Under the pieces are notes generated by a model that did not search any database, was not told the origin of the DNA, and saw only the letters and a list, made by a program, of their open reading frames with translations. DNA of 64,000 bases from Hydra vulgaris (lineage: Eukaryota; Cnidaria; Hydrozoa; Anthoathecata; Hydridae): the NCBI RefSeq assembly GCF_038396675.1, contig NC_088934.1, positions 5,990,501-6,054,500 on the forward strand, written 5' to 3'. The translations under genes and the position numbers were made by a program. Shown piece after piece: positions 54,725-63,986 of this stretch. Within the stretch, counting starts at the first letter, position 1. The number at the start of each line of letters is the position of its first letter.

Positions 54725-54961
54725 CTATAAATATATAATATTATTTTTATAATGTACAAAATTGTTTTCACAAACATAATAATATTGATCAACTGACCAT
54801 TGAGCATATTTCATAACACAATTATAAAAAAATTGAACATTATTATCATTAATATAAGGATTAAAATAGTGTGTTCTAAATAAACGGTGTAAATAAAATA
54901 TAATTCTTCTATGTATCCAAAAAAATAAATTATGATCGTTTAAAAAAGTTAATTTATAACT
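54725..54961 (-). CDS. Possible 3' exon of an unassigned viral gene
   Basis: After an acceptor TTTATATTAG (ending 54,962) a 79-codon open segment runs to TAG, with NDHNLFFWIHRRIIFYLH and MKYAQWSVDQYYYVCENN. No upstream exon with matching phase was identified; it could belong to the DED gene by alternative splicing. Aromatic-rich, no domain recognised. Confidence 0.35.
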   Translation of the reverse strand, partial: SYKLTFLNDHNLFFWIHRRIIFYLHRLFRTHYFNPYINDNNVQFFYNCVMKYAQWSVDQYYYVCENNFVHYKNNIIYL

Positions 54962-55031
54962 AATATAAAAAAATTCTTGGTTTTACTATACAAGTAAAAA
55001 AACTATGAATTGATTCCCAAAAAAAAAAAGT

Positions 55032-55481
55032 TTAGATGAATTCTGGTTCTTGGGCACATTCAGGTGCTTCAGCTGGTTCTGGTATATGATTATAAAAATG
55101 AAATAGTTCTTCTTGTTTGGCTTCGATGACTGCACTTGGATATACTGCGTTCGGTGGTGAATAAATAGGTGGTAGATTTTTAATAATGCTTTCTTCATAA
55201 GTCGGTAGACGTGGTATTTTATTTTTATATTTGTTAAAAATATCATTTCGATGAATTACTTTACACATGTTGAGTAAAAATTCCAATTTACTTTCTAAGC
55301 TTTCATGAATATTTCCATTATAATCTTCTATGGCATTATCTTTGATATACTCTACAAGATCGTATGCGTTTTTTAATTTTTGTTTGATACCATGTGGAAG
55401 TATTAACACAAATCTAATACTTCTAACGTTTTCAAAAGTGAGCTCATCAGTTATTTGTCTGAAAACTTCCATTGCATTCAT
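55032..55481 (-). CDS. Death-effector-domain-like protein with PPxY tail
   Basis: 149 codons from ATG 55481, chosen because it follows an acceptor-like TTTTTTTAG (55498) and an ACTAATAAAAAA leader. Residues about 4-85 have the pattern of a DED: VFRQITDELTFENVRSIRFV, LKNAYDLVEYIKDN and LEFLLNMCKVIHRNDIFNKY, with the final R-x-D-(I/L) typical of DEDs. DEDs pair with FADD/caspase-8-type proteins. The tail holds LPTYEES and LPPIYSPP, the latter a perfect PPxY motif that in other viruses recruits NEDD4-type ligases, then a Glu/Pro-rich end. Function (blocking or hijacking death-receptor signalling) is inference. The frame is intact. Confidence 0.6.
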   Translation of the reverse strand: MNAMEVFRQITDELTFENVRSIRFVLILPHGIKQKLKNAYDLVEYIKDNAIEDYNGNIHESLESKLEFLLNMCKVIHRNDIFNKYKNKIPRLPTYEESIIKNLPPIYSPPNAVYPSAVIEAKQEELFHFYNHIPEPAEAPECAQEPEFI

Positions 55482-55596
55482 TTTTTTATTAGTTAATCTA
55501 AAAAAATAATGGGTAATAATGATAGATAAAGTACAAAAAAAAACATATAAAAAAAATAGCAATGATAGAACAAATACATTTTTTACATAAAATATA

Positions 55597-56674
55597 TTAT
55601 TCAATAGTAATCATGATAAATAAATGATTATTAATAATAAATTGTTTTAGTTCTTCGTGTGAAATAAAATTGTTATAACCAACAGCTACATTATATTCAG
55701 TGGTAGGTTTATCAAAAGAACTATCGTTTAAAAGTTGAAGATAATTATTGTTGGTAGTAGTATGAGTAAAAAATTTATCTTTTCTCTCAAGGTTAAATTG
55801 ACATTTTTGGTAAAAGGCCATTTTAAAGAATCGTCCAGGTCACCTCGTAATAATTGAAAGTAAATGGCTAGTTTGTTTACGTCGGTACTTCGAGTATAAA
55901 CTTTTATACGATAACGATAACCTTCTGATGTGTACACGGGTTCTGTATAAAATGGTTCATCTGATAATAGCCTGAGATTCATTTGATCAAGTTTGATGAT
56001 TTGCGTGTCGTTAAAGATGTGTTGTATTACCTTTACTTCTTTAGGTTGTTGAATTGATTTTTTTAAAGCTAAGAATTCTGTGCTATTTTCTTGTAGGATT
56101 TGATAAAGTTTTGTTATTTCTTGTTTGAGATGTTCTGTATCTTGTTGATTTGCTAAAACCATCATGTTGTCATAAAAGAGACTTTTTAATTCTGCCATTT
56201 CTTTGTTCATTTCTGCTAGGGTTTGATGAAGTTTGACATTTTCTTCTTTTAGATTTTTAATTTCTTGGTCTTTTTCTTTAGAGTCAACTATTTGTTTAGT
56301 TGTAATTTCTTGAAGACTCTTCATTCTATTCATGATTTGATTAATAGAAAGATTCAAAATTTAAATTTTTCTTTTCTTCTTGAATTATTTGGTTCAAATT
56401 ACGATTTTGTTGTTCTTTATAATATCGTAAGCAGATGACAGAGTGTTCATAATAATCTTGATCATCGACTTTGGTATTACAAAAAAAACATATTTTTTTG
56501 TATATCTAGAAATTCATAATCACATTCATGGTTTAACAAATCTTGCACCTTTTTCGTACATGTAAAACATTCGTGGGAGTATTGTTCTGTAGAACAATCT
56601 GTTTGATGATTTAAAAGTTCTTCTGCACTAAATTATTTGTCACAAAAACAGCAAGGATATATGTTATCTGCCAT
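55597..56674 (-). pseudogene. TRAF-like protein: zinc fingers, coiled coil, MATH domain (broken)
   Basis: Read from ATG 56674: two Cys/His fingers (YPCCFCD..FSAEELLNHQTDC; HECFTCTKKVQDLLNHEC) and, after a one-base shift near 56,500, a third (ICFFCNTKV...YYEHSVIC). Then a coiled coil (about 56340-56050, heptads such as EIKNLKEENVKLHQTLAEM). Then a TRAF-C/MATH-type domain: EPVYTSEGYRYRIKVYTRS and YFQLLRGDLDDSLKWPF, and after another shift near 55,818 a matching end (FDKPTTEYNVAVGYNNFISH). The order zinc finger, coiled coil, MATH is that of TRAF adaptors. There is an in-frame TAA near 56,634. No RING is visible. Breaks may be decay or sequence error. Confidence 0.7.
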
Positions 56675-56758
56675 TTTTTTTATTAGTTGCTGAAAAAAAA
56701 CATTTATTTATATAAAACTATAAAAAAAAATATACATGTCTTTTTTACCATAAAAGAA

Positions 56759-56950
56759 TTAATAAATAAAATCACTCAATAAAACATATAAAAGAATTAA
56801 AATATAAATAATGTTTGTTTCAATATCTTTAATATCTTGTTCTTGTTTTTGTTTGAATATATCGTTAAAAGTTATGTTTTCAACCTCTTCAAATACGTCT
56901 CCAAAACCAGGAAACATGTCTTCATAATTTTCATTATTATTAGTTGTCAT
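56759..56950 (-). CDS. Small tail-anchored acidic protein
   Basis: 63 codons from ATG 56950, which follows TTTTTTTAGCAAACATAATA. The N-terminal 40 residues are acidic (NYEDMFPGFGDVFEEVENI). The C-terminal end NIIYILILLYVLLSDFIY is a single hydrophobic segment ending the protein, as in tail-anchored membrane proteins. No family recognised. Intact. Confidence 0.55.
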   Translation of the reverse strand: MTTNNNENYEDMFPGFGDVFEEVENITFNDIFKQKQEQDIKDIETNIIYILILLYVLLSDFIY

Positions 56951-56999
56951 TATTATGTTTGCTAAAAAAAGAAAAAAGATATATTTACAAATTAAAAAA

Positions 57000-57426
57000 T
57001 TACAAATAAAGTTCGGGTAAATTGTCCATTTTATTAATAATGTCTAAAATATATTGTTCCCAATCCATTTCATTGAAGATCTCATGAATTTCTTTTTCTA
57101 TTTCTTCCTCTTCTTTTTCCACTTCTTCTTCTAACATCCGTGATTTTAGCTCTTCAATATAATCTGATTCTTCTTCATCCATTTCTTGTACTAATTGTTC
57201 TAAATATTTTTCATGATCTTCCTCTGTTAACTCCATTTCCATTAGTTCTTCCAAATCTTGTTCTTCTTCTTTTGTCAATAACAACTCGTGGTAGCATATA
57301 GTGTCTTCATTAATATTTTCTCCATAACTAATAGAAAAAAATGTATAAAAAGTGTATAAAAAATAAAAAAAATATAAAAAAAATGAAATAGGCTTACCAT
57401 CCACATTTTTTGATATATTGTTTCAT
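57000..57426 (-). CDS. Spliced acidic coiled-coil protein
   Basis: Exon 1 is 57426-57398 (29 nt, starting at an ATG that follows TTTTTTTAGCAAACTAATA). The intron is 57397-57328 (70 nt, GTAAGC...CTATTAG) and exon 2 is 57327-57000. The phase is consistent across the join. Exon 2 encodes a very Glu-rich helical protein (KEEEQDLEELMEMELTEED, VEKEEEEIEKEIHEIFNEM), about 70% charged or helical residues, with no known domain. The short intron with strong signals shows it was expressed through the host spliceosome. Role unknown. Confidence 0.6.
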
Positions 57427-57476
57427 TTTTTTAATATATTAGTTTGCTAAAAAAATAAAAAAAAGTTACAAAAACA

Positions 57477-57791
57477 TTATTGCAATATAAAATGTGTAAT
57501 TATTTCCATAGTTATATCTATATTTTTTTCATGTTCTAATTTATTTTCTTTTGTTGAAATGTCAAGAGACCACATCCATAAAGCATCATATAAAGCACGA
57601 GCTGCTTCGACTTCGGTTCCTTTTTTTTGATATATTAAGTTTAAAAATCTCATCATTCTTTCGTTGATATTATGGTAATCACATTGTATACATTCGATTT
57701 CACGTTTTTTATAGTCAAGATATTCTGCCAAAGTTTGCCATTGTGTTTGCAAATGTGCTGCTATTTTTAGTATTAATTGCATAAAATTCAT
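57477..57791 (-). CDS. Death-domain protein 2
   Basis: 104 codons from ATG 57791, which follows TTTTTTAGCAAAAAAATA. A six-helix death-domain pattern: IAAHLQTQWQTLAEYLDYKK (W...LA..L), REIECIQCDYHNINERMMRF and EAARALYDALWMW. Conserved W and L positions match the family. Death domains assemble oligomeric signalling complexes (receptor, FADD, MyD88 type); which partner it mimics is not visible. The same frame is open upstream into death-domain protein 1, so a fused two-domain protein is possible, though the acceptor site argues for a separate start. Confidence 0.6.
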   Translation of the reverse strand: MNFMQLILKIAAHLQTQWQTLAEYLDYKKREIECIQCDYHNINERMMRFLNLIYQKKGTEVEAARALYDALWMWSLDISTKENKLEHEKNIDITMEIITHFILQ

Positions 57792-57803
57792 TATTTTTTT
57801 GCT

Positions 57804-58103
57804 AAAAAATATAAAAATTTGATATAAATAATTCAATATAAATAATTTACATTGTTGTATATTATATAAAAGTTTTTCATCTTCCCATAATGATACTACA
57901 AAATACAAATGTTTGATTGCCAACTTTTTGTTTGGTTGTGTTAATATATATAGGGTTAAAACGTTTTTTATTTTATCAAATGTTTTTATGTAATTTTTAT
58001 TGATTTTTTTTATTTCACTTCTTCTAAACTTAAATAAAAACGCCAAATGTTTCCATTCGTGATGGAGTTGTTTTGAAGTGTAATTTATTATTTCTTTAAT
58101 CAT
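57804..58103 (-). CDS. Death-domain protein 1
   Basis: ATG 58103 follows CTAGAATAAAAAA. Residues about 10-85 form a death-domain-like pattern: QLHHEWKHLAFLFKFRRSEI, KKINKNYIKTFDKIKNVLTL and LAIKHLYFVVSLWEDEKL. A possible donor TGTAAATTATT at about 57,857 would remove the linker to the next gene; without splicing the frame runs on to 57,477 through a hydrophobic linker. It is weaker than domain 2 but shares the W-x2-LA and helix-6 spacing. Confidence 0.5.
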
Positions 58104-58242: not shown

Positions 58243-58755
58243 CTATAAATTTTCTGGATCTGGACTCTCTAAAAAAAAAGACACAGAGAATATTAAAAAA
58301 ATATACTTTTTTTTATAAAATAAAAAAGGATCAAGTTTAACTTACGAGGAGAGTAGTCCCAGTGCTAGGGACCCACCTCTCTATTTGGAGGTGGATATGG
58401 ACTTTCTAAAAAAAAGGGAAATATTAAAAAAAATGAATTTTTTTATTATTAAAAAAAACTAGTAAAGTTAAACTTACGACGAGTGCGGGAAGGTGTATCG
58501 TTCATGACATTTCTTAACACTTTGCGAATATTACTTAGTGTTAGTAACTCTTGATCTATAAGAAAAAATAGTATTATGAAAAAATAATATTTTTTTATTA
58601 TAGATGTAAACCATAAAACAATTACCTCTTTTTGCATTGTACGCAAACAGTTGACAAATAGGGCGTTTTTTTCCATTTTCGATAACATAAAACTGGTCTA
58701 TAGTGCTATCATTAAATACTTCGTATTTTACTTTATTTATTGAAATATAATTCAT
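58243..58755 (-). CDS. Four-exon mini-gene with duplicated terminal exons
   Basis: Exon 1 is 58755-58626 (MNYISINKVKYEVFNDS...CQLFAYNAKR), intron 1 is 58625-58556, and exon 2 is 58555-58478 (ELLTLSNIRKVLRNVMND). Exon 3 is 58405-58346 and exon 4 starts at 58268. Introns are about 70-77 nt with GTAAGT-type donors and poly-T-AG acceptors. Exons 3 and 4 begin with similar sequence and continue in the same phase. Exon 3 is 60 nt (frame-neutral) but has a TAG at 58365; exon 4 ends at TAG 58243. Inclusion or skipping of exon 3 gives two different tails. Product unknown. Confidence 0.5.
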
Positions 58756-58855
58756 TTTAACTAAAAAAAGAGGTTTATTTAGGAATAAATACCATATTAT
58801 TTTTTTTGTAATAAATAAAAAATAGTTATAAATAAAAATATCATTTTTTATAAAA

Positions 58856-60729: not shown

Positions 60730-60933
60730 ATGAGTCATAGAAGACATAGAGGTCATAAAAATGCTAAAAGATATATTTTTGTTCATAAAAAATCGAGAGC
60801 TCATCCTAGACCTTATCATTCTTTAATCGGTAAAGGACGAAAACGTATACTTAGAAAACGCGGTAAAGGTATCCTTGGTAACCTATTAGGAAATATACCC
60901 GTACTTGGTGGTGTATTTAAAACTATATTTTAA
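60730..60933 (+). CDS. Adenovirus pX/adintovirus-like basic core peptide
   Basis: 67 codons, starting 3 bp after the previous stop. The N-terminal 50 residues are His/Arg/Lys-rich (SHRRHRGHKNAKRYIFVHKK, KGRKRILRKRGKG). The C-terminal end is a hydrophobic glycine-rich helix (ILGNLLGNIPVLGGVFKTIF). A basic DNA-condensing half plus a short hydrophobic tail is the architecture of adenovirus core peptide X and similar adintovirus peptides, where a G-G/G-x-G site is cut by the viral protease. Assignment is by architecture only. Intact. Confidence 0.55.
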   Translation: MSHRRHRGHKNAKRYIFVHKKSRAHPRPYHSLIGKGRKRILRKRGKGILGNLLGNIPVLGGVFKTIF

Positions 60934-61507: not shown

Positions 61508-61793
61508 ACTTGTTTAAACGAATTTTATAAAACGAATAATAAATTAGAAACTTCTTCCTTTACAACGGATGATAGTTTAAAAAAAGTCCAGGGTAATTTT
61601 AAATTATTTTTTCGTTTGGATGGAAGTAAACAAATCAAAGTAACTCGTGTTAATAATAAAGCCCATATTGTTTTTATTTATGGTGAAAACAAACACGAAT
61701 TTGAAATGGGTTATGAAGACTTTGTTGATGTTATTAAAGAGTCATTTAACGTCTGGCTACTCGAAGAAGTAGACATAAAAAATGAAGCATTTT
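61508..61793 (+). CDS. Paralog family member 2 (start not found)
   Basis: The frame is open from 61508, without an early ATG, to TAA 61793. It contains GNFKLFFRLDGSKQIKVTRV, NNKAHIVFIYGENKHEFEM and SFNVWLLEE. It shares with member 3 the pattern G-(D/N)-F...R-L...IKVTR-x-N...IVFIY...HEF/HTFE...WLL. The N-terminus is lost or in another frame. The stop overlaps the start of member 3. A small β-rich protein is inferred from alternating hydrophobics. Confidence 0.5.
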
Positions 61794-62142
61794 AAAGATT
61801 ATCTAGAGTTGTGTTATCCGTTTCCCGAAATTACAAGATTTTTATTTTTCACTATTTAAAACAAATAGTAAAGCAAAGGGTGATTTTTTATTGATACATC
61901 GTTTAAAATGGGGAACAATTATTAAAGTAACACGTTCCAATGATGAACTCATTATTGTGTTTATATATGAAGAAAGACACGAACATACTTTTGAAATTCC
62001 TTTGAAACATTTTTTATCGTATGTTTGCCGTTGTCAACAAAAATGGCTTTTAAGCGAAAAAGACAAAATTTTAGATCAAAGACACGTAAAAGTAATAGAA
62101 AAAGGATACGTAGAAGAGGAAGAGGATTGGCTGATTTTATAA
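61782..62142 (+). pseudogene. Paralog family member 3, frameshifted
   Basis: ATG 61782 overlaps member 2's end. It opens KHFKDYLELCYPFPEITRFL, then a shift in a T-rich run near 61,845. The homologous part (GDFLLIHRLKWGTIIKVTR, LIIVFIYEERHEHTFEIPLK, QQKWLLSEKD) runs to 62142. The last 100 bp overlap the next gene in another frame. About 35% identical by eye to member 2 over 60 residues. Confidence 0.5.
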
Positions 62143-63520: not shown

Positions 63521-63763
63521 AGGAAAAATATACCCTCTACTTCATATACCATACATCTTTTTATGTTGGCAAACTAGAATCTTTAGTCAGAATGTAACTT
63601 TTCTATTGATTAGCTGGTTAATTGTGATAAATTAGAAAGTCGAAGTACGTACTTTTAAATTGAACCCCCCCCCCCCCCCCCTCCAATACGCTTTCGTACG
63701 CTTTTTGAAGACCCCCCCCCCTCTCCCCCCTATGAGCGTACGTACTTTTTGGACGACCCCTTA

Positions 63764-63986
63764 CAAGACAAGCAACACGTCTTCTGAAGATGTATTTTGC
63801 CCGCTCTTTTAGTAATGGTGTTAAATATCCATACTTCTTTATTTAATAAGTGAATCGTGCAATTTTTTAATAAAGTGTCATTTTTTTTTCTCTTAACACG
63901 AGGAAATAGAGTTCACCATAACCATTACACGTAGCGCATTTTTCTTCGACAATTTCTTCTAGAAATGTGTGTGCTGTTCTCTTCAT
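63764..63986 (-). pseudogene. Small viral-type gene with CxxC motif, truncated
   Basis: ATG 63986 opens 39 codons with FLEEIVEEKCATCNGYGELY, then TAA at 63867. A shifted frame continues (HLLNKEVWIFNTITKRAGK) toward the transposon insertion at 63,760. It resumes the minus-strand, small-gene style of the virus-like region, showing that the region continues to the right of the insertion. A CxxC zinc-binding role is possible; family unknown. Confidence 0.4.

Follow-up and report, generated by a model that had tools for sequence, protein, structure and literature searches.

Death-fold and TRAF-type genes of viruses are known singly, as viral death effector domain (DED) proteins and a viral TRAF in large viruses of vertebrates. 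The poxvirus vFLIPs MC159 and MC160 are virus-coded proteins with two DEDs (PMC7823800, in the excerpted text), and the megalocytivirus protein ISKNV ORF111L is a viral TRAF with a coiled coil, a MATH domain and a RING (PMC3352826, in the excerpted text); both are precedents for viral proteins that touch the TNF-receptor/death-receptor pathway. Here we describe a locus in a stretch of 64,000 nucleotides of Hydra vulgaris DNA (NC_088934.1, positions 5,990,501 to 6,054,500; hereafter the window), where genes for a DED protein, a TRAF-like protein and two death-domain (DD) proteins lie together. Judged from sequence and linkage, the cluster appears to be the accessory cassette of a multi-copy integrating DNA element that resembles Polintons and adintoviruses, and we hold it to be nearly certain that it belongs to this virus-like element and not to a host gene cluster.

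The locus shares with ISKNV ORF111L a virus-coded coiled coil and MATH domain, and with MC159 and MC160 a virus-coded DED protein. However, the Hydra element TRAF is RING-less, has three zinc fingers and stands beside DED and DD genes, whereas the DED protein has a single DED followed by a tail with PY motifs. Cellular TRAF1 is likewise RING-less with a coiled coil and MATH, but it has one finger where the element TRAF has three. The death domains recall those of FADD and RIPK1: a third DD protein of sister copies (DD3) matches both, and the DD2 profile matches RIPK1. Unlike RIPK1 and FADD, the element DDs stand alone, without a kinase or DED.

In the window, the element reaches leftward to about 54.7 kb and its right side runs beyond the window end. 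A block of small genes from about 54.7 to about 62.3 kb combines the minus-strand cassette with largely plus-strand late-side genes. The cassette was compared across 25 loci: the window, four left flanks of copies of the element's marker gene (the late-side open reading frame (ORF) L127) and 20 cassettes picked for diversity from DED matches. The presence of DED in the 20 added loci is by construction, because they were picked by DED matches; that of the other genes is not. The cassette genes of the window are listed in the order of minus-strand transcription.

57831..58103, minus strand: death-domain protein DD1, about 95 amino acids, reads on into DD2 here (Pfam Death alone, E = 0.0068)
57480..57791, minus strand: death-domain protein DD2, 104 amino acids (Pfam Death alone, E = 1.7e-8)
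57000..57332, minus strand: acidic protein (coordinates of the main reading stretch); found at each of the 25 loci but L045
56759..56950, minus strand: 63-amino-acid protein with a C-terminal hydrophobic segment (transmembrane, TM); adjoins TRAF in 23 of 25 loci, not found in L045 and L048
55600..56698, minus strand: TRAF-like gene with three C2HC fingers, coiled coil and MATH, RING-less, broken (tblastn of the 356-amino-acid ORF of L021; Pfam MATH)
55032..55481, minus strand: DED-like protein, 149 amino acids; RxDL-type motif present, two [L/P]PxY motifs in the C-terminal tail (Pfam DED, E = 1.9e-5)
54725..54982, minus strand: further conserved ORF, 85 amino acids stop to stop, next after DED; tblastn 52-100% in 4/4 left-flank loci L021, L023, L024 and L025 (L025: 14 residues only)

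A short upstream exon of the acidic protein near 57.42 kb was recognized by eye only. The last ORF of the list matched no Pfam family; L021 has two adjacent ORFs related to it, of 156 and 246 amino acids. The genes present kept one order and one strand in all 25 loci. DED and TRAF were found in 25, the acidic protein and DD2 in 24, and DD1 and the TM protein in 23, some of them partial or with stops.

The search of the Hydra vulgaris genome (911.5 Mb, 15 contigs) revealed that the cassette is tied to the rest of the element. Copy counts refer to the best 150 matches per query (marker, DED, DD2, DD3, MATH, Death), and chance expectations assume uniform placement over the genome. DED lay within 15 kb of the marker in 96 of the best 150 DED matches against 0.7 expected, with the same arrangement in 92 of the 96. 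Of the best 150 DD2 matches, 99 had a DED within 8 kb, and 96 of these 99 stood on the same strand and upstream. At larger distance, DED was found within 50 kb of DD3 in 78 of the best 150 DD3 matches, always on the opposite strand (75 with DD3 downstream, median 26.8 kb), and within 50 kb of the packaging-ATPase-like gene at 68 of 100 places against 1.6 expected, 64 of them in the expected arrangement (104 rows minus 4 second fragments gave the 100 places). DD3 stood within 4 kb of the ATPase and on its strand at 68 of the 100 places. Scoring limits, decay and breakage could explain the copies without a link, namely 54 of the best 150 DED matches, 72 of the best 150 DD3 matches and 32 of the 100 ATPase places.

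An ATPase copy with one stop (C15:6073179, 94% identical) lies on the same chromosome, 18.7 kb past the window end. It is 22.3 kb from the marker and 27.6 kb from DED, near the medians over linked copies (22.0 and 28.0 kb), and it is therefore very probably part of the window's element. The linkage, the element genes described below and this ATPase at the expected distance are our reasons to assign the cassette to the element. The first-pass annotation, which had placed the four adaptor genes within 3.1 kb on one strand inside a virus-like element with a cnidarian host, was right about the strand and the element. Its gene list was incomplete, as the 63-amino-acid TM protein and the acidic protein belong to the cassette too. 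The same cluster recurs at other Hydra loci, as it had proposed to look for, and the linkage of 96 of the best 150 DED matches to the marker, with the ATPase at a fixed distance at 64 of 100 places, contradicts its counter-hypothesis of host genes unrelated to the small-gene block. The host is a cnidarian, as it had inferred.

Polintons (Mavericks) and adintoviruses resemble this element, which is multi-copy and integrated and has an integrase gene and candidate genes for a polymerase B and a packaging ATPase. Fragments of five sister copies contained integrase, dUTPase (Pfam, 1.5e-22), Pif1 helicase (Pfam, 1.2e-34), ATPase-like and polymerase-B-like genes, one piece each, together with large candidate virion genes. 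The retrovirus-like integrase typical of Polinton/adintovirus-like elements was found in one sister piece, L028, as a 431-amino-acid ORF that matched Pfam rve at 1.7e-6 (28.7 bits, below the curated 32.6) and NCBIfam IS481 at 4.6e-9 (36.2 bits, far under the cut-off of 224). The polymerase-B-like ORF has 1179 amino acids (L022:2275-5814), with DTDS and exonuclease motifs seen by eye only; it matched no DNA_pol_B family and nothing in PDB, and contained an Endonuclease_7-like stretch (1.7e-4, under the cut-off). A single weak IMG/VR match of 19 residues (L066) to this ORF was not used. In the preceding ORF, too, an exonuclease-like motif was noticed by eye.

The packaging-ATPase-like ORF (420 amino acids) has a P-loop and matched Pfam FtsK only at 0.2. 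Candidates for the double-jelly-roll capsid and the maturation protease of such elements are ORFs of 1048 (L028) and 387 (L026) amino acids, the protease motif being seen by eye; neither had a convincing Pfam or NCBIfam match, and the larger one had no PDB match. Since polymerase, capsid and protease were called only from motifs, length or location, we file the element as Polinton/adintovirus-like without a formal claim of membership. Polintons of Hydra have been described before: the excerpted texts mention a Hydra polinton 'P1-HM' (PMC11071308), a capsid protein of a Hydra magnipapillata Polinton, in print by 2014 (PMC4028283), and cnidarian capsid genes outside the main Maverick-Polinton cluster (PMC10120064). 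The word 'death' is absent from the main texts of PMC11071296, PMC11071308, PMC10120064, PMC4642659 and PMC4028283. The literature search returned nothing that links death domains to polintons or adintoviruses; the founding description of adintoviruses may already note these accessory genes.

The DED ORF of the window matched Pfam DED over residues 7-87 of 149 (25.3 bits, curated cut-off 35.9), in one stretch only and not in the tandem that is a trait of vFLIPs. All 24 aligned DED proteins, the window's included, matched the family at E ≤ 0.01 (best 7.2e-7). RxDL is a hallmark motif of DEDs, and [L/P]PxY motifs are of the WW-binding type, the PY motifs being bound by WW domains of the NEDD4 family. 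Among 25 DED proteins, LP[TS]Y occurred in 25, two [LP]PxY motifs in 23 and RxD[ILV] in 22.

The region 57477-58103 of the window matched Pfam Death at 2e-11 in two stretches. DD1 and DD2 form one ORF of 208 amino acids there and separate ORFs in L021. Against a cut-off of 22.6 bits, DD2 scored 34.9, DD3 41.6 and DD1 of L021 25.7, and DD1 of the window, taken alone, stayed under it with 17.0; of 12 DD1 copies, 11 matched at ≤ 0.01 (best 2.4e-7). Searches of PDB led from the DD2 profile to the death domains of THOC1 (4.7e-5) and RIPK1 (9.3e-5), and from the DD1 profile to that of RIPK1 (0.0037). DD3, which stands beside the polymerase-like and ATPase-like genes in sister copies, matched the death domains of RIPK1 (2.5e-7) and FADD (1e-5); higher-ranked WD-40 rows in its PDB table were disregarded, because they add up many short matches to repeats. 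A protein-database search that needs shared 5-residue words returned no relatives of the fused DD ORF or of DED. In IMG/VR no relatives were found for DED, DD2, the pX-like ORF at 60730, the ORF at 61807 or the ATPase, and the best of 10 proteins searched against PHROGs reached only E = 0.029. A BH3 motif with a GFGD core, seen by eye in the TM protein, was rejected as too weak.

The TRAF gene of the window lies in four pieces (55600-55791, 55770-56357, 56356-56499 and 56483-56698), in more than one frame and with in-frame stops. It matched Pfam TRAF-mep_MATH at 1.7e-10 (55728-56333), while the rest of MATH was found in another frame (MATH_2, 5.1e-5, 55600-55839); PDB matches were TRAF5 (2.4e-5) and TRAF3 (1.4e-4), and the MATH ORF matched nothing in the phage collection. 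The intact sister TRAF of L021 matched Pfam MATH at 1.1e-18, over the cut-off. The zinc fingers are seen as conserved C and H columns in an alignment of 10 proteins, of which P0014 is without the first finger, and Pfam found no TRAF zinc-finger family in the cassette TRAF of the window or the sister. The coiled coil was judged by eye. A RING is absent, as the protein starts 7 residues ahead of the first finger and has no Pfam RING match. The DED, DD1 and DD2 frames of the window are open, but its TRAF has decayed, so that the window cassette is partly a fossil, with intact versions elsewhere (e.g., L021).

Thus the DED-like protein of the first-pass annotation was borne out by the Pfam match (1.9e-5) and by the 24 of 24 relatives at E ≤ 0.01, with scores under the cut-off. 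Its TRAF-like protein was right in fingers, coiled coil and MATH, but the gene is broken in the window. The two death domains exist as two Pfam stretches, although in the window they read as one ORF.

In the TRAF tree, five NCBI relatives group with the TRAFs of the cassette in one clade (98/97); the tree left out two of ten host loci as partial (L058, L061), and 8 of its 19 inner branches are open. Eight presumed host TRAFs of Hydra share 24-31% identity with the L021 TRAF, and no donor was found in the tree. The 12 strongest genomic MATH matches look like host TRAFs and are unlinked to scored element genes, whereas 83 of the best 150 MATH matches stand beside DED and 16 beside DD2, on the same strand. 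At 14 places the marker is followed 6-10 kb downstream, on its own strand, by a MATH match, apparently a second, very different MATH/TRAF-like gene of some lineages; the one that was read (L065, C2:12860500-12861300) is 27% identical to the cassette TRAF and has a long tree branch. A phmmer comparison of 15 DD sequences, in which the L002 entry is in a wrong frame, found DD1 and DD2 most alike and DD3 nearer to presumed host DDs. At least two captures by the element seem likely from these comparisons.

The protein database contains 17 relatives of the cassette TRAF, of which 15 are named as Hydra vulgaris TRAF2-, TRAF3- or TRAF5-like and two are uncharacterised. This calls for caution in annotation: the 17 relatives bear public Hydra names, and the five placed in the tree sit in the viral clade. 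Three NCBI Hydra gene models (P0008, P0015 and P0017) fuse the TM protein with TRAF across a splice acceptor, P0017 also including the acidic protein; they represent either model errors or a membrane-anchored splice form.

Selection was measured as the ratio of nonsynonymous to synonymous rates (dN/dS) in the intact ORFs of 27 loci, two short loci included. Medians over pairs with dS of 0.08-1.2, which share branches and are not independent, were 0.23 for DED (25 ORFs, 282 pairs), 0.28 for TRAF (8, 27), 0.32 for DD1 (14, 77), 0.33 for the acidic protein (5, 9), 0.42 for DD2 (15, 91) and 0.48 for TM (15, 93). None of these pairs had a ratio of 1 or more, and the cassette genes are under purifying selection. 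There was no stop in 114 of the best 150 DED matches. A copy on C2 has the same sequence as one on C10 over 3,312 bp, and a C3 copy differs from it by a single gap. The spread of the element is thus very recent, since copies on different chromosomes are identical over this length.

Between loci, identity at DED goes along neither with that at DD1 (66 pairs, r = 0.11) nor with that at DD2 (78 pairs, r = -0.07). The window and L025 are 96-98% identical at the DDs and 64% at DED; the window and L033 are 97% identical at DED and 54-59% at the DDs. Other correlations of identity were 0.81 for DD2-TRAF (21 pairs), 0.58 for DED-TRAF (21), 0.42 for DD1-DD2 (45) and 0.11 for DD1-TRAF (10). The simplest reading of these mosaic alleles is recombination between lineages.

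A sequence like a 3' splice acceptor stands just ahead of the ATG in DED, TRAF, DD1 and DD2. Before DED it is (T)n-AG-ATTAACTAATAAAA-ATG or a close variant in 21/21 rows shown (three DED rows left out), and before TRAF (T)n-CAG or TAG-CAACTAATAAAA-ATG in 8/8. DD2 has a similar acceptor in 5 of 6 rows in register, the L046 row being out of register, and DD1 a less U-rich AG in 12/12. A near-invariant acceptor-plus-start motif can be read at 55482-55510 and 56675-56702 of the window, with equivalents in L021-L052. Hydra uses spliced-leader trans-splicing, and the acceptors suggest that the cassette genes may be spliced to a common leader or to the Hydra spliced leader from an operon-like transcript.

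RING-less TRAFs and isolated DD or DED domains compete with complete host proteins. Because the parts of the cassette are adaptors without a detected effector, and because such domains compete in this way, we propose a blockade of TNF-receptor/death-receptor complexes by competitive decoys; direction, partners and decoy mode are what we infer, and we favour this reading with some reserve. The products are stand-alone adaptor domains, with no enzymatic part or effector detected. The DDs would occupy DD surfaces of receptors or of RIPK1 or FADD type; the DED would cap DED assemblies, to which its PY motifs may bring a ubiquitin ligase of the NEDD4 family; and the RING-less TRAF would join or replace host TRAFs without being able to ubiquitinate. 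The net effect would be that the infected Hydra cell is kept from signalling and dying. This suggests a virus that jams the cell-death switch of its host in one of the oldest animal lineages.

Several points weigh against this proposal. The DED call, made from sequence and not from a fold model, is the weakest of the domain calls, because the DED profile matched no solved DED in PDB; the DED bit scores seen (25.3 and 29.7) are under the curated cut-off of 35.9. DD identity alone cannot name the pathway, since the best PDB match of DD2 is THOC1. The binding of NEDD4-type WW domains by the PY motifs of the DED protein is putative, and so is the DED bridge built on it. No DD3 was among the scored matches near the window's ATPase, one of 32 ATPase places without a scored DD3; because 17 of the 32 still have DED within 50 kb, DD3 is probably a feature of some element lineages only. 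The shared branches of the dN/dS pairs belong here too. Finally, overexpression of ISKNV ORF111L raises caspase-8 apoptosis and does not block it (PMC3352826, in the excerpted text).

The opposite role, in which the cassette nucleates signalling to kill the cell for virion release or drives NF-kB/JNK for the virus, would fit both the ability of lone DD and DED domains to nucleate assemblies and the finding that ISKNV ORF111L binds TRADD and on overexpression increases caspase-8-dependent apoptosis (PMC3352826, in the excerpted text). But ISKNV ORF111L has a RING, according to the same excerpt, and the Hydra cassette TRAF has none; Pfam searches found no caspase, kinase or ligase domain in the cassette proteins, and we consider a pro-death cassette unlikely. 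Integrated copies might also serve Hydra itself, as domesticated regulators of the TNF pathway or as a defence against related viruses. The 15 of 17 TRAF relatives that bear names of Hydra genes and the 114 of the best 150 DED matches without a stop would agree with such use, but the copies identical over 3,312 bp, the virus-type gene linkage and the mosaic alleles are more in keeping with a mobile element that is active, and the window copy is decaying, so that we give this explanation a small chance.

It is very improbable that the cassette has a role in the virion or in budding, with PY motifs as late domains and death-like folds as structural parts. The two [L/P]PxY motifs, seen in 23 of the 25 DED proteins, and the small, versatile nature of helical death folds speak for it; however, the cassette and the late-side genes run on different strands, and the combination of MATH, zinc fingers, DD and DED points to a single signalling pathway. 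Host TRAF and DD genes clustered by chance beside a repeat are hardly conceivable. Hydra has many DD genes, and the eight strongest of the best 150 Death matches are more than 50 kb from a scored marker or DED, but the idea is already contradicted by the fixed order at 25 of 25 loci, by the 96 of the best 150 DED matches linked where 0.7 were expected, and by the single clade of viral TRAFs (98/97) with its 24-31% identity (L021) to the eight presumed host TRAFs.

If we return to the decoy proposal, a more far-reaching version can be held only tentatively. It would be a recently mobile cnidarian DNA virus with a whole parallel set of TNF/death-receptor adaptors (DD, DED, TRAF), in an operon-like array with an own splice acceptor for each gene and possibly spliced-leader trans-splicing; the DED bridge would recruit a NEDD4-type ligase through its tandem PY motifs to destroy death-effector assemblies, and alleles would be shuffled between lineages as in an arms race. 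If this were true, extrinsic cell death would be an antiviral defence as old as the cnidarian-bilaterian split. A single integrating virus of middle size that combines DD, DED and TRAF in a non-bilaterian host would show the TNF/death-receptor pathway under viral attack in Cnidaria, and under such attack the pathway would probably be antiviral there. Transgenesis is available in the laboratory model Hydra vulgaris, and the question is therefore directly testable.

The remaining genes of the element in the window, with the small basic protein and other late-side genes on the plus strand, are the following.

58625..58756, minus strand: start of a small, probably multi-exon gene (exons by eye); DNA conserved in L023, L024 and L025
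58856..59119, plus strand: small basic protein, 87 amino acids; conserved in L021, L023, L024 and L025
59258..59674, minus strand: acidic proline-rich protein, 138 amino acids; conserved in L021, L023, L024 and L025
60343..60726, plus strand: late-side ORF L127, 127 amino acids stop to stop, the element's marker gene; at least 149 other matches at 74-98%
60730..60933, plus strand: very basic protein of 67 amino acids, hydrophobic at one end and by eye only reminiscent of adenovirus pX; matches in 11/11 loci L010-L020
60997..61281, plus strand: conserved ORF of 94 amino acids; matches in 11/11 loci L010-L020
61508..61795, plus strand: conserved ORF, paralogue of 61807..62142 (33-42%); matches in 11/11 loci L010-L020
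61807..62142, plus strand: conserved ORF, paralogue of 61508..61795; matches in 11/11 loci L010-L020
63763..63986, minus strand: fragment of a 110-amino-acid element gene; tblastn 65-86% to L026:9240-9572

For 58625..58756 the query was translated in another frame with stops as X, and its matches are to be read as DNA conservation only. The best Pfam match of the pX-like ORF had E = 1.6. The element is broken off from about 62.4 to 63.7 kb (about 1.3 kb), resumes with the fragment at 63763-63986 and leaves the window.

To the left of the element, a gypsy-type retrotransposon was recognized by eye, and the rest of the window appears by eye to be largely transposon debris. A unit of about 9.96 kb with transposon ORFs is duplicated in tandem between 30.9 and 50.8 kb, in blocks that are 98-100% identical; the duplication is either real or an assembly artefact.

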